Shown: positions 8,331 through 13,289 of the stretch, piece by piece
Layout of the letters: each line of letters starts with the position of its first letter
Position numbering within the stretch: position 1 is the first letter of the stretch
NCBI RefSeq assembly: GCF_015831345.1
Contig: NZ_JADWYS010000001.1
Location: 3,624,618 to 3,688,617 of the forward strand
DNA length: 64,000 nt
From: Caenimonas aquaedulcis
GTDB taxonomy: Bacteria; Pseudomonadota; Gammaproteobacteria; Burkholderiales; Burkholderiaceae_C
Reading direction: 5' to 3'
Program-made: the position numbers and the translations under genes
The notes under the pieces: generated by a model
Told to the model about the DNA's origin: nothing
Databases searched by the model: none
Seen by the model: the letters and a program-made list of their open reading frames with translations, nothing else

Positions 8331-8855
8331 ATGCAAGCCGTGCCCCAGCACCGGACAACCCGCCGGGTGCGGCGCTGGGTGCTTGCAGGTGCGGTCGCGT
8401 TGCTCGCGCCCGTGGCGGCCTTCGCGCTGGACCGCGGCGATCCGGCGCCCGATTTCACCTTGCAGGGCCCCGCGGGCACGGTGCGCCTGGCCGACCTGCA
8501 AGGCAAGCTGGTCCTGGTCGATTTCTGGGCGTCGTGGTGCGGCCCGTGCAAGCAGTCCTTCCCGTGGATGAACGAGATGCAGGCGCGATACAGGGACAGG
8601 GGCCTGCGCATCGTCGGCGTCAATGTGGACAGGAGAGCGACCGACGCCGACAGGTTCCTCGAACGCATTCCCGCCGGCTTCACGCTCGCCTTCGATGCCG
8701 CGGGCGAAGTGCCGCGCCAATACGGCGTGAAGGCCATGCCGACCTCGGTGCTGGTCGGCCCCGACGGCCGCGTGCTCGAAATCCATTCGGGGTTCTCGGA
8801 CGACGAACGCGCGGCACGCGAACAGAAAATCCGCCAGTCGCTGCCGCCCCCATGA
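8331..8855 (+). CDS. TlpA/ResA-like periplasmic thioredoxin-fold oxidoreductase
   Basis: 174 residues. An Arg-rich N-terminus and a hydrophobic segment ending in Ala (about residues 16-32) form a signal peptide or anchor, followed by a TlpA-type thioredoxin domain. The active site is Cys70-Gly-Pro-Cys73 ('ASWCGPCK') and the cis-Pro loop is 'AMPTS' (Pro137). It probably reduces or isomerises disulfides of exported partners. Its stop overlaps the next gene by 4 bp (ATGA), placing it in one unit with the DUF4266, DUF3570 and ApbE genes. The likely client is one of those exported proteins, perhaps the cysteine-bearing DUF4266 lipoprotein. Confidence 0.9.
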   Translation: MQAVPQHRTTRRVRRWVLAGAVALLAPVAAFALDRGDPAPDFTLQGPAGTVRLADLQGKLVLVDFWASWCGPCKQSFPWMNEMQARYRDRGLRIVGVNVDRRATDADRFLERIPAGFTLAFDAAGEVPRQYGVKAMPTSVLVGPDGRVLEIHSGFSDDERAAREQKIRQSLPPP

Positions 8856-9085
8856 AGCACGCGCGCATCGGCATGGCTGCCGCCGTCGTTTGCGCTTGCG
8901 CTGTCCTGTCGGGATGCGCAGGCTGGGGCCAGGTGCAGGCATGGGAAAAGGGCGACCTCGCGAGGCCCGGGATGCGTTTCGACGCGGACCCGCTCGATGC
9001 GCGCTTCACCCAGCACGTCTACACCAGCAAGGAAGCGGCGAGCGGCGGCGGCGCGGTGGGCGGGGGCGGGTGTGGCTGCAACTGA
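8852..9085 (+). CDS. DUF4266 small lipoprotein with Gly-rich CGC tail
   Basis: 77 residues. A lipoprotein signal peptide ends in 'LSGC' with the lipidated Cys22, followed by the DUF4266 pattern 'WEKGDLARPGM...D' and 'HVYTSKEAASGG'. The C-terminus is a glycine-rich run ending Cys74-Gly-Cys76-Asn. Molecular function is unknown; family members are usually neighbours of DUF3570, a thioredoxin and ApbE. The ATG overlaps the thioredoxin stop, and its own end overlaps the DUF3570 start by 14 bp. The two tail cysteines are candidates for a disulfide, metal or cofactor site serviced by the adjacent thioredoxin. Confidence 0.85.
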   Translation: MKHARIGMAAAVVCACAVLSGCAGWGQVQAWEKGDLARPGMRFDADPLDARFTQHVYTSKEAASGGGAVGGGGCGCN

Positions 9086-10217
9086 GCGCGGACGCGTCCT
9101 CGCCGCGAGCCTGCTGCTGCCCGGTCTCGCCGCGGTCTCCGCGGTCCGCGCGGAGGAGCCGCCAGAGCAGGCCACCATCGCGCTGAAGTACGGCTGGTAC
9201 CGCGATGCGCAGCCGGGTTGGGATCGGGTGCGCGTGCACTCGCCGCAGGTCTTCCTCTCGCTCCCGTTCGCGGGCGCCTGGGCGGTCGAAGGGTCGGCGG
9301 TGGTCGACAGCGTGTCGGGCGCGACGCCCCGCATGCACACGACGGTCAGCACCGCCACGCCCTACATGAGCGACGTGCGCCGCGCGGCCGACGTGAAGGT
9401 GACGCGCTACTTCCACCGCGCCGCGATTTCCGCGGGCATCGCCTATTCGGGCGAGAACGACTATGTCTCGCGCGCGCAAAGCCTGGAGGCGCGCTGGTCC
9501 AGCGAGGACAACAACCGCACCTGGACGGTGGGCCTCGGCCATTCGCGCGACCGCATCGACGCCTCCGCGACGGGCGGCAGCGCGATCGGCGAGCACCGGG
9601 AAACGCACGAGCTGCTGCTGGGCGCGACGCAAGTTCTCACCGCCCGCGACCTCGTCCAGGTGCAGCTCACACGTTCCCTGGACTCGGGCTACTACAGCGA
9701 TCCCTACAAACTCTTCGACGACCGGCCCGGCGCGCGCCGCGCGAGCATCGCGTTCTTTCGATGGAACCACTTCGTCGACGGCCCCGATGCCACGCTGCGC
9801 ACGAGCTGGCGCCATTGGCGCGACAGCTTCGGCATCCGCGCCAGCACGCTGTCGGCCGAGTGGGCGCAGCCCGTGGGCGCATGGACCTTCACGCCGGGCC
9901 TGCGGTGGCACATGCAAAGCGCGGCCTCGTTCTATTTCGACCCGGTGGTGAATGCGTCGGGGATCCCCGATTCCCTCGCCACGCGCATCTACGCAGGCAG
10001 CCTCACGGGCTACCGTTCCGCAGACCAGCGCCTCGCGGCATTCGGCGCCGTGACGGTGTCGCTGAAGGCGGCTTACGACTTCGGCAACGGCCAGGTGATG
10101 GATGCCCGGGTGGACGTATTGCGCCAGGCGGCGCACTACAAGCCGGGCGGCGGCAGCCCGTACCTCGACCCGATGCGCGCGACCTTCGTGCAACTCGGCT
10201 GGTCGCGCAAGTTCTAG
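9072..10217 (+). CDS. DUF3570 outer-membrane beta-barrel protein carrying an ApbE flavinylation motif
   Basis: About 381 residues from a GTG start at 9072, chosen because it gives a clean signal peptide ('VLAASLLLPGLAAVSAVRA'). The body has alternating amphipathic strands and the last residue is Phe ('WSRKF'), the usual outer-membrane barrel signal. Residues 79-85 read Asp-Ser-Val-Ser-Gly-Ala-Thr, an exact match to the Dxx(S/T)GA(T/S) consensus by which ApbE attaches FMN to Thr85-type acceptors (known from NqrC/RnfG). The ApbE gene follows after 9 bp. DUF3570 function is not established; an FMN-bearing outer-membrane redox protein is my inference. Confidence 0.85.
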   Translation: MAATERGRVLAASLLLPGLAAVSAVRAEEPPEQATIALKYGWYRDAQPGWDRVRVHSPQVFLSLPFAGAWAVEGSAVVDSVSGATPRMHTTVSTATPYMSDVRRAADVKVTRYFHRAAISAGIAYSGENDYVSRAQSLEARWSSEDNNRTWTVGLGHSRDRIDASATGGSAIGEHRETHELLLGATQVLTARDLVQVQLTRSLDSGYYSDPYKLFDDRPGARRASIAFFRWNHFVDGPDATLRTSWRHWRDSFGIRASTLSAEWAQPVGAWTFTPGLRWHMQSAASFYFDPVVNASGIPDSLATRIYAGSLTGYRSADQRLAAFGAVTVSLKAAYDFGNGQVMDARVDVLRQAAHYKPGGGSPYLDPMRATFVQLGWSRKF

Positions 10218-10226
10218 CGGACCGGC

Positions 10227-11150
10227 ATGCCCGCCTGGCGAGCGCTGCGCTTCGACTTCACCGCCATGGCGTCGCCGTGCGAACTGGTGATCGAAGGCCG
10301 GGACGAGCCGGCGATGCGCGCGGCGGCGGCCGCTGCCATCGACGAAGTGCGGCGCATCGAGGCGAAGTACTCGCGCTACCTGCCGGGCAGTGTGCTCTCG
10401 CGCATCAACGCCGCCGCCGGCGCGCGGGCGGTGGACATCGATGCGGAAACGTCTTCGCTGCTGGACTTCGCAGGCACGCTCTGGGAGACGAGCGGCGGCC
10501 TGTTCGACGCGACGTCCGGCGTGCTGCGCCGGGCCTGGAATTTCGCGCAGGCGCGGCTGCCGCGCGCCGGGGAACTCGATGCCCTGCTGCCCCTCGTCGG
10601 CTGGGACCTCGTCGAACGCGGCGCGGCGAGCGTCCGGCTTCCCCTGCCGGGCATGGAGCTCGACTTCGGGGGATTCGGCAAGGAATACGCGGCCGACCGC
10701 GCGGCGGGAATCCTTCACGCACGCGGCATGGCGCACGCGCTGGTCAACCTCGGCGGCGACGTGCACGTCGCCGGCCCGCACGGATTGCCGGATGCCGCTG
10801 GCCAGCCCTGGCAGGTGGCCATCGCCCGGCCCCGCCCCGGCCCACCCGGCCCGCTCGCGACGATTCCCGTGCTGCGCGGCGGCGTGGCCACCAGCGGCGA
10901 CTACGAACGCTATTTCGAGCAGGGCGGCCGCCGCTACTGCCACGTGCTCGAACCGCGCACCGGCTGGCCCGTGCAGGGCTGGCAGTCGATTTCCGTGTGG
11001 GCGCCCAACACGACGGCGGCAGGCGCACTGTGCACCGTCGCCCTGCTCAAGCAGCAGGAGGCGCTCGACTGGCTGGACGGCCAGGACGCCGGCTACCTCG
11101 CGGTGCGTTCGGACGGCGAGGTCTTTCGCCGCGCCGCCGGTACACAATAG
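10227..11150 (+). CDS. apbE: FAD:protein FMN transferase (ApbE family)
   Basis: 307 residues. ApbE moves FMN from FAD onto a Ser/Thr of a target protein. Motifs: 'LDFGGFGKEYAAD' at about 145-157, 'NLGGDVH' at 174-180, 'ATSGDYERY' at 221-229 and 'HVLEPRTG' at 239-246. In the C-terminal metal-binding motif the usual Asp of 'DALxT' is Gly266 (it reads 'TTAAGALCT'), so metal binding may differ from studied ApbEs. No obvious signal peptide is present, whereas many ApbEs are exported lipoproteins. It follows the DUF3570 gene, the probable substrate, and precedes a two-component system by 4 bp. Confidence 0.9.
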   Translation: MPAWRALRFDFTAMASPCELVIEGRDEPAMRAAAAAAIDEVRRIEAKYSRYLPGSVLSRINAAAGARAVDIDAETSSLLDFAGTLWETSGGLFDATSGVLRRAWNFAQARLPRAGELDALLPLVGWDLVERGAASVRLPLPGMELDFGGFGKEYAADRAAGILHARGMAHALVNLGGDVHVAGPHGLPDAAGQPWQVAIARPRPGPPGPLATIPVLRGGVATSGDYERYFEQGGRRYCHVLEPRTGWPVQGWQSISVWAPNTTAAGALCTVALLKQQEALDWLDGQDAGYLAVRSDGEVFRRAAGTQ

Positions 11151-11154
11151 GGGC

Positions 11155-11856
11155 ATGAGGCTCTTGCTGGTCGAAGACGACGTGATGGTGGCCAGCGGCA
11201 TCAAGCTGGGGCTGTCCGATGCCGGCTACGCGGTCGACTGGGTGGGCAGCGGGGAACGCGCCGAGGAGGTGCTGCGCACGGAAGTGTTCGACGGCGCCAT
11301 CATCGACATCGGCCTGCCGCACATGGACGGCCTCGAGCTCACCAAGCGGCTGCGCCGCCCCGAGATGGCCAGCCGCGCGATGCCGGTGCTGATCCTCACC
11401 GCGCGCGACGCGCTGCACGACCGCGTGCAGGGGCTCGACCTCGGCGCGGACGACTACATGATCAAGCCCTTCGAGCTGCCCGAGTTGCTCGCGCGGCTTC
11501 GCGCCCTGCTGCGGCGCTCGCAGGCGGCGACCACGGCGGTGCTCACGTTCGGCCCGATCGAGCTCGACACCGCCAACCGCCGCGCGACCGCCATGCGAGC
11601 GGGCCAGCACGTGCCGATCGAGCTCGGCCCGCGCGAATGGACGGTGATGGAGTACCTGCTGATGAACGCGCCCAAGCCCGCGAGCAAGGAAAAGCTGCTG
11701 CAGGCATTGACCGGTTGGGACAAGGAGATCACCCCCAACGCGGTGGAGGTCTACATCTCCCGCCTGCGCGGCAAGCTCGAGCCGCACGGCGTCGCGCTGC
11801 GCTCGATCCGGGGGTTCGGCTACCGGCTCGAGCTGAGCGAGCCCGCCGGGCCGTGA
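11155..11856 (+). CDS. OmpR/PhoB-family response regulator
   Basis: 233 residues: an N-terminal receiver domain with acidic pocket 'EDD' (residues 7-9), phospho-acceptor Asp51 ('IIDIGLP') and 'MIKPFEL' Lys near 102, then a C-terminal winged helix ending 'VYISRLRGKLE...IRGFGYRL'. It begins 4 bp after apbE and its stop overlaps the kinase start (TGATG). Cotranscription with the thioredoxin/DUF4266/DUF3570/ApbE genes suggests that it controls this locus, possibly in response to redox or metal stress; that is inference. Confidence 0.92.
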   Translation: MRLLLVEDDVMVASGIKLGLSDAGYAVDWVGSGERAEEVLRTEVFDGAIIDIGLPHMDGLELTKRLRRPEMASRAMPVLILTARDALHDRVQGLDLGADDYMIKPFELPELLARLRALLRRSQAATTAVLTFGPIELDTANRRATAMRAGQHVPIELGPREWTVMEYLLMNAPKPASKEKLLQALTGWDKEITPNAVEVYISRLRGKLEPHGVALRSIRGFGYRLELSEPAGP

Positions 11857-13289
11857 TGCCGCGCTTTCGGGCCGGCCGCGCGGCCCGGCCGGTCGACCTG
11901 CTGGGCATGACCTCGGGCCTGCGGCGCCGGCTCCTCGTGATGCTGATCGTCCCCTTGTTGCTGCTCGCGCTCGTCAATGCGTGGTTCGATTACCGGTCCG
12001 CCGACAACGTCGCCGCGCAGCAGGACCAGGCCCTGCAGGCGCTCGTCCCGCTGCTGGCCGACTCCGTGATCGGCGAGGGCGCGAAGAAGGGCGACCCGGT
12101 CCTGCTGCTCGCGCCGGCCGTGGAGGAATTCCTCAAGGGCGCACCCGAACGCGCCTTCGCGATCCTCGATATCGAAGGCAAGGTGCTGCGCGGGGAAGGC
12201 TGGCTCGAAGGCCTGCCGCCGGCCAACCCCGACATCGAGTTCCACAGCGAGGAGAACCTCGGCGTCACCTGGCGCATCGTGCGGCAGCGCCAGCAGACGG
12301 TGCTCGGCGAGATCGTCGTCGTCCTGGCCGACGGCTCCGATCCGCGACAGCAGTGGGCGCGCTCCGTCCTCTTCAAGGTGCTGCTGCCCAACCTCATCCT
12401 GATCGCGGCCGCCGCGTTCGCGGTGCGCTGGGCGGTGGAGCGCGCGCTGCGCCCGCTGCTGGAGCTGCGCGAGGCGGTGGAGCGCCGCTCGCCGCGCGAC
12501 CTCACGGCGATCGACGAGGGCGCGTCGCCCGAGGAAGTGCGGCCGCTGGTCATCTCGCTCAACCGCCTGTTCGGCCTCGTCAACGCGCAGGCCGAGAGCC
12601 AGCGCCGCTTCATCGCGGACGCCGCGCACCAGTTGCGCACGCCGCTCGCGGGCCTGCAGGCGCAGGTCGAGGCCTGGGCGCAGGCGGCGAACGCGGCGCG
12701 CGGCGGGCAGGGCACGATCAGCCTGCGCATCGACCAGGTCACCAAGCTGCGCGGCGCGACCCGGCGCACCTCGCAGCTGGCCAACCAGCTGCTCGCGCTG
12801 TCGCGCGCGGACGCGCGCAGCATGCAGGCCGAACCGATGCAGCGCGTCGACCTGAAGGGCCTGTGCGAAACGATGTTGGAGGCCTACCTCGACGCCGCGA
12901 CGGCCAAGCGGATCGACCTGGGCCTGGATGCGCAGCCCGCGCAGGTGATGGGCCATGAGTGGCTGCTGCGCGAGCTGCTGTCCAACCTGGTGGACAACGC
13001 GGTGAAGTACACGGGCGAGGGCGGCACCATCACCATCCGCTGCGGCATGCGCGGCGCGGCGGCGTACCTGGAAGTCGAGGACGACGGCCCCGGCGTCGCG
13101 CCCCCGGAGCGCCAGCGCGTGCTCGAGCGTTTCTACCGCGTGAAGGGAACTCAGGGCGAGGGCAACGGCCTCGGCCTCGCGATCGCGGACGAGATCGCGC
13201 GCGCGCACCACGCGCAAATCGCGCTGCAACCCGGCTTGGGGGAGCGGGGCCTGAGGGTCACGCTGCTCTTCGCGGGGCCGGCGGGGTAA
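11856..13289 (+). CDS. Membrane sensor histidine kinase (TctE/QseC-like)
   Basis: 477 residues. Two transmembrane segments (about residues 25-43 and 170-190) bracket a periplasmic domain of roughly 120 residues. Then come a HAMP-like linker, the H-box 'RRFIADAAHQLRTPL', the N-box 'LLSNLVDNAVKYT' and the G-boxes 'VEDDGPGV' and 'GNGLGLAI'. The N-terminal sensor resembles the TctE/QseC class ('2CSK_N'). It is the cognate kinase of the response regulator just upstream (1-bp stop/start overlap) and closes the operon. Confidence 0.92.
   Translation: MPRFRAGRAARPVDLLGMTSGLRRRLLVMLIVPLLLLALVNAWFDYRSADNVAAQQDQALQALVPLLADSVIGEGAKKGDPVLLLAPAVEEFLKGAPERAFAILDIEGKVLRGEGWLEGLPPANPDIEFHSEENLGVTWRIVRQRQQTVLGEIVVVLADGSDPRQQWARSVLFKVLLPNLILIAAAAFAVRWAVERALRPLLELREAVERRSPRDLTAIDEGASPEEVRPLVISLNRLFGLVNAQAESQRRFIADAAHQLRTPLAGLQAQVEAWAQAANAARGGQGTISLRIDQVTKLRGATRRTSQLANQLLALSRADARSMQAEPMQRVDLKGLCETMLEAYLDAATAKRIDLGLDAQPAQVMGHEWLLRELLSNLVDNAVKYTGEGGTITIRCGMRGAAAYLEVEDDGPGVAPPERQRVLERFYRVKGTQGEGNGLGLAIADEIARAHHAQIALQPGLGERGLRVTLLFAGPAG

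Follow-up and report, generated by a model that had tools for sequence, protein, structure and literature searches.

Predicted covalent flavin on a DUF3570 outer-membrane barrel beside a signal-less ApbE in Caenimonas aquaedulcis

Published DUF3570 systems and the Caenimonas locus

The closest described relatives of the locus analysed here, in which a DUF3570 gene stands beside apbE in a 64 kb stretch of the Caenimonas aquaedulcis genome (the window; the genome searched comprises 4.52 Mb in two contigs), were reported by Meheust et al. 2021. The DUF3570 protein of Chlorobium luteolum was identified there as an ApbE substrate that is flavinylated by its ApbE, and two [S/T]GA[S/T] motifs were reported in DUF3570, both of whose serines had to be changed to abolish flavinylation (PMC8238504). 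The constructs in that work were signal-truncated (a 'similar cloning strategy' is given for DUF3570), and DUF3570 was flavinylated while mostly insoluble (PMC8238504); this co-expression fits cytosolic flavinylation as a first step. The same study described 'DsbD systems', which comprise DsbD, a thioredoxin-like gene and a DUF4266 gene with a C-terminal CxC, and counted 316 clusters that were not colocalised with DsbD (PMC8238504). A 2025 review gives the ApbE motif and records that replacement of its Gly by Ala in another substrate cut flavinylation (about 50%); the usual ApbE is described as an exported, often lipid-anchored enzyme (PMC12052999).

The window locus has the same four gene types as these clusters, in the order thioredoxin-like, DUF4266, DUF3570 and ApbE on the plus strand, followed by genes for a response regulator and a sensor kinase; it also shares the [S/T]GA[S/T] motif and the CxC pair of DUF4266. 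It differs in that DsbD, an optional feature, is absent from the locus and in that one canonical site is found instead of two. In addition, Meheust et al. named PF13899 for the thioredoxin-like gene, whereas the window protein matches AhpC-TSA, Redoxin and Thioredoxin_8 (PMC8238504). An earlier note on this DNA had proposed that its ApbE attaches flavin mononucleotide (FMN) covalently to DUF3570 at this motif. The proposal is supported by analogy with the published Chlorobium test but is not a new idea, since the flavinylation chemistry of DUF3570 and clusters of this type had already been described (PMC8238504). New here are the predicted placement of the flavin at the outer end of the barrel and the clan of ApbEs without a signal. 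The single-site prediction also goes beyond the published account as far as the text at hand extends, and that text mentions neither a barrel nor a signal-less ApbE in connection with DUF3570 (PMC8238504). The word DUF3570 was not found in the available text of a 2024 follow-up (PMC11334425), and a literature search for a flavinylated barrel or for flavin attachment before export, with subscription papers and preprints outside its range, returned nothing relevant.

On balance, we favour the view that the DUF3570 protein is an outer-membrane flavoprotein whose Thr85 would be flavinylated in the cytosol by the signal-less ApbE, after which the chain would be exported and folded to pass thiol-derived electrons outward.

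Flavinylation motif and predicted barrel

The DUF3570 gene (9072..10217, plus strand; GTG start at 9072, stop at 10215-10217) encodes 381 residues, and the only Pfam match of the protein is DUF3570 (PF12094, 1.2e-51; 176.3 bits against a cut-off of 25). Translation gave DSVSGAT at residues 79-85 (9306..9326, plus strand; gac agc gtg tcg ggc gcg acg), exactly where the earlier note had read it, with Thr85 (codon 9324-9326) as the predicted FMN acceptor. This was the sole D..[ST]GA[ST] in the six frames of the window (127,996 codons), and the motif arose in 129 of 20,000 shuffles of the DUF3570 protein. When the window protein was aligned with 35 homologues (52-86% identical), D79, S82, G83 and A84 did not vary. 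Across a broader set of 84 aligned sequences, position 79 was Asp in 83, position 83 was Gly in 77 and position 85 was Ser or Thr in all 84.

A second conserved site, overlooked by the earlier note, sits 11 residues past DSVSGAT. Most relatives have SGA[ST] there; the window protein has a degenerate form (Ser-Thr-Ala-Thr, STAT, residues 93-96, 9348..9359, plus strand), so that no canonical second [S/T]GA[S/T] is present. Among 103 motif-bearing loci, a second [ST]GA[ST] lay within 28 residues in 69, its Gly was replaced in 15 and none was found in 19; because it was absent or altered in 34 of the 103, the second motif was not counted as defining, though it is reported as conserved. Since the second site is degenerate, the window protein is predicted from its residues to carry one flavin. 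Partial modification of STAT is possible, given that Gly to Ala is partly tolerated in another ApbE substrate.

We then considered 112 DUF3570 loci (the window's own, L005-L113, L121 and L122), counting the motif anywhere in the open frame and with a flank of only ~1.5 kb for L005-L033. An adjacent apbE and the motif occurred together at 93 loci, apbE without the exact motif at two (L009 and L020), the motif without adjacent apbE at 10 and neither at seven. That is, the motif was present at 93/95 loci with adjacent apbE against 10/17 without (Fisher p 1.6e-5, with shared ancestry ignored). The earlier note had suggested that the motif might be conserved only with apbE; the association holds, but the word 'only' fails on the 10 loci without an adjacent gene. 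Two of these (L021 and L111) terminate close to the edge of a contig, and the genomes of five others (L058, L083, L100, L106 and L109) have a signal-less ApbE elsewhere (L150, L160, L161, L149 and L163), of which L149 and L161 fall in the clan described below by the tree and L150, L160 and L163 adjoin another DUF3570. In the genomes of L121 and L122 there is, in addition, a canonical DUF3570 accompanied by its ApbE, and the tenth locus, L030, is an exception. Meanwhile, L070, which reads SGPS and lacks an apbE next to it, comes from a genome that contains a clan ApbE (L167).

AlphaFold2 modelled DUF3570 with confidence as a barrel of 16 strands (predicted local distance difference test 90.7, predicted template modelling score 0.86), as the earlier note had expected of an outer-membrane barrel. 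The features expected of such barrels, an even strand number, alternating hydrophobicity, a C-terminal aromatic residue and an export signal, are all predicted for this protein. The alternation was seen on many strands, with weak averages on strands 2 and 7, and the C-terminal Phe381 was invariant in the window protein and the 35 homologues. The best solved-structure matches of the model were outer-membrane barrels, and a search of the DUF3570 alignment against the sequences of solved structures gave no match up to E 1. By inspection, residues 1-27 form a Sec-type signal peptide (9072..9152, plus strand) that ends in LLLPGLAAVSAVRA and has no twin arginine; residues 1-25 are of low confidence in the model. 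A Leu-Pro-Gly within this predicted signal peptide is invariant in the 36 aligned sequences, which is unusual for a signal peptide, and is absent from many distant relatives.

In the model, Thr85 sits where strand 3 gives way to the loop that leads to strand 4, on the loop side of the barrel, with both termini at the other end. The loop side opposite the termini is usually the extracellular end of such barrels; therefore, Thr85 is predicted to stand at the extracellular end. The earlier note held that burial of Thr85 away from ApbE would count against flavinylation. The model suggests that the site is probably inaccessible to a periplasmic ApbE once the barrel has folded; this does not refute flavinylation, because a signal-less ApbE could modify the chain in the cytosol, before it folds.

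Signal-less ApbE and the proposed order of events

The gene at 10227..11150 (plus strand; 307 residues; Pfam ApbE, PF02424, 4.8e-70) is predicted from its sequence to encode an ApbE flavin transferase. It aligned with the solved ApbEs 1vrm and 4xdt over the conserved blocks, including the flavin adenine dinucleotide (FAD)/metal and catalytic region, and kept GGFGKEYAADRA and ATSGDYERYF...RYCHVLEPRTGWP. It starts 9 bp past the DUF3570 stop, as the earlier note had it. This in-frame stop leaves nine residues ahead of the start of the ApbE domain as placed by the profile, which is too short for a signal; therefore, the window ApbE cannot carry one, and it has neither the signal peptide nor the lipobox of exported ApbEs. 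It is the single ApbE match in the window genome.

To score other ApbEs, we used a hydrophobicity heuristic on possible starts rather than SignalP; the genomes searched belonged to one phylum, and every named locus was from Pseudomonadota or unplaced. The count took in 96 ApbEs, 93 of them distinct because three were fetched twice, at loci that have both DUF3570 and DUF4266, with matches that covered too little of the profile left out (L012, L015, L017, L052, L055, L152 and L170). No signal was detected in 91 of the 93 distinct ApbEs, and 42 of these 91 had no possible start at least 12 residues upstream. One of the two positives (L034) came from residues ahead of the obvious start and was read as false; the other (L182) has a real signal, and the DUF3570 of its locus reads SSAS. 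For comparison, 63 ApbEs were scored as other, from which six of the DUF3570 kind were removed (L149, L161 and L167, which are unlinked, and L176, L177 and L178, which are copies of linked genes); a signal was found in 42 of the remaining 57 and not in 15. In a tree of 105 ApbE domains (45 linked, hand-chosen for spread, 3 unlinked and 57 others; L182 lay outside, and L172 and L173 had long branches), the 48 of the DUF3570 kind were split from the 57 others with support of 100/96. The DUF3570-linked ApbEs in the tree thus form one well-supported clan.

Since the ApbEs linked to DUF3570 lack a signal and that of the window is unable to have one, attachment of the flavin in the cytosol before export is, from these sequences, the most likely order. 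The predicted position of the site at the outer barrel end, together with an ApbE without an export signal, likewise suggests that the flavin is probably already in place before the protein leaves the cytosol. We propose that DUF3570 would be made with its Sec-type signal, that ApbE would move FMN from FAD to Thr85 on the unfolded precursor in the cytosol, and that the modified chain would then be exported and fold as the 16-strand barrel. The flavin would thereby come to lie at the barrel's extracellular end or inside its outer mouth. The partners suggest that electrons may run from DsbD through the thioredoxin-like protein and the CxC of DUF4266 to the flavin and on to an outside acceptor (iron, quinone or oxygen). 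We infer this order of events, the electron route and its direction; a thiol electron relay is probable, and outward transfer is plausible.

Several observations weigh against this scheme. D79, S82, A84 and S/T85 persist in relatives without the Gly and without adjacent apbE; thus, part of the motif may be structural. Because 15/57 other ApbEs also fail the signal test, some of them with missed lipoprotein- or Tat-like ends, a negative score in this test is not confined to the clan. The locus L030 keeps the exact motif, and of the two ApbEs in its genome one has a clear signal (L136) and the other is borderline (L157, 2.19 against a cut-off of 2.2). The extracellular assignment of Thr85 depends on the usual barrel rule, and confidence in the loop is lower (mean 66, residues 91-100). 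When DUF4266 and DUF3570 of L035 were modelled as a single fused chain (alignment A3, with 63 further rows, of which 13 were fused too), the CxC tail could not be placed with confidence, and the block means for DUF4266 were ~28-56; threading of the tail into the barrel is neither favoured nor disfavoured by this model. Finally, the main hypothetical step of the scheme is that a chain with bound FMN would pass through Sec.

The alternative that survives best competes on the electron route only, and we regard it as a lesser but real possibility: the flavin may belong to a sulfhydryl oxidase or a sensor that draws electrons from the DUF4266 CxC, not to an outward respiratory device. Thioredoxin-like and CxC proteins are regular partners, DsbD can be found close by, and no gene of the locus names an external acceptor, all of which suit this alternative. 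The normal supply of electrons outward by DsbD and the suitability of an outer-end flavin for an external acceptor speak for the outward device, and neither is a test. It is rather unlikely that flavinylation is periplasmic in the conventional way, by an ApbE that needs no classical signal for its export and acts on DUF3570 ahead of its folding in the outer membrane. Unfolded barrel precursors do pass through the periplasm, and a linear motif could be briefly reachable on them there. The exported, often lipid-anchored habit of ApbEs in general would also fit (PMC12052999); against this, the sole ApbE of the window genome cannot have a signal, and the lack of one is common to 91/93 distinct ApbEs beside DUF3570. 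Least likely of all is that the motif is mainly structural, with [ST]xA[ST] closing a barrel turn, ApbE serving another protein and DUF3570 bearing little or no flavin: the four residues do persist where Gly83 has become Ser or Asn in a clade without adjacent apbE, and at the second site S/T, A and S/T are retained by most of the 84 sequences whereas the Gly position is variable, but Gly83 is kept in 77/84, a published DUF3570 lost its flavin from its ApbE only when both serines were changed (PMC8238504), and FMN_bind and DUF2271, the two substrate types searched for, had no match in the window genome.

Partner genes, distant relatives and known systems

The two genes that the earlier note had placed upstream, a thioredoxin and a DUF4266 lipoprotein, were recovered by Pfam. 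The first (8331..8855, plus strand) encodes an exported thioredoxin-like protein of the TlpA/ResA type, 174 residues long with a WCGPC active site (AhpC-TSA, 1.4e-24); its NCBIfam ResA-like match is below the cut-off, and its N-terminus is signal-like by inspection. The second (8852..9085, plus strand; DUF4266, 7.5e-22) encodes a small lipoprotein of 77 residues with a lipobox LSGC by inspection, and the GTG start of DUF3570 overlaps its end. Its C-terminus, GGGGCGCN, contains the CxC pair. The last residues (9062-9082 in the window) were GGCGCN at 109 of 110 loci and GGCGCY at one, and L205, outside this count, ends in GCGCE. This resembles a metal ligand or a recognition tail more than the usual end of a lipoprotein.

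The sole DsbD_TM match in the window genome lies outside the DUF3570 locus, at 2297624-2298256 of the contig. In relatives, DsbD near DUF3570 was confirmed by Pfam in six neighbouring open reading frames and suspected at 47 of the 80 named loci, where long frames gave weak thioredoxin matches. At L106, L058 and L109, which have no adjacent apbE, a DsbD gene comes directly after DUF3570, and a signal-less ApbE is encoded at another site of the genome. The response regulator (PmrA/QseB-like) and sensor kinase, identified by profile matches at 11155..13289, start 4 bases after apbE in the same direction. We considered them as a conserved part of the operon and rejected this, as close homologues of both genes were near DUF3570 at one of the 80 named loci (L043; contig ends truncate some of the 80); the two-component system is probably a mere neighbour. 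The closer matches include Ramlibacter relatives (P0012, 65% identical; L043, from Ramlibacter albus, 57%).

Six distant DUF3570s with Gly83 replaced by Ser or Asn (L023, L024, L028, L031, L032 and L033) had been taken as an 'ApbE-free' clade. This was rejected, as each of the six source genomes has ApbE, which lies ~7-12 kb from DUF3570 in G366, G007 and G246. The 11 ApbEs of genomes with only the distant type (G342, G368, G366, G015, G007 and G186) all fall outside the signal-less clan. L117 (215-13830) and L164 concern the distant clade, in which Gly83 is often Ser or Asn. In L117, its DUF3570 lies near ExbB-like, TPR, SH3-plus-barrel and HZS_alpha-like genes, with ApbE ~12 kb off; this locus is perhaps a different outer-membrane machine that shares thioredoxin, DUF4266 and DUF3570. 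In L015/L128, the DUF3570 open frame has 912 codons and matches in several pieces, possibly a duplicated or enlarged barrel.

If the scheme is true, a covalent flavin at the cell surface would be a possible small haem-free electron route across the outer membrane. Its fullest form, a haem-free conduit with a dedicated signal-less ApbE clan, a flavin brought to the surface via Sec and BAM, and a DUF4266 CxC tail that reaches into the barrel to feed it, seems to us improbable as a whole. Should no more than the published part prove true, the locus would be an ordinary addition to a family already described.

Among solved barrels, PelB (9h80_M), CymA and OmpG resemble the DUF3570 model in a barrel fold that aligned over most of it, but identity was at most 14% among the matches listed, and a shared fold shows no function. 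NqrC and RnfG, which have FMN_bind and an exported lipoprotein ApbE, share the covalent chemistry and the motif with DUF3570 and differ from it in fold and location. The cytosolic ApbE of Klebsiella pneumoniae, like that of the window, has no signal peptide; its substrate is a soluble fumarate reductase that stays in the cytosol, whereas the window substrate has an export signal and is predicted to reside in the outer membrane (PMC12052999). The cases in the available text of the review pair an exported ApbE with an exported substrate or a cytosolic ApbE with a cytosolic substrate (PMC12052999). A cytosolic ApbE for an outer-membrane protein would, if true, be a third arrangement, in which the cofactor is attached before export and thereby reaches a site that is probably unreachable for a periplasmic ApbE after folding.
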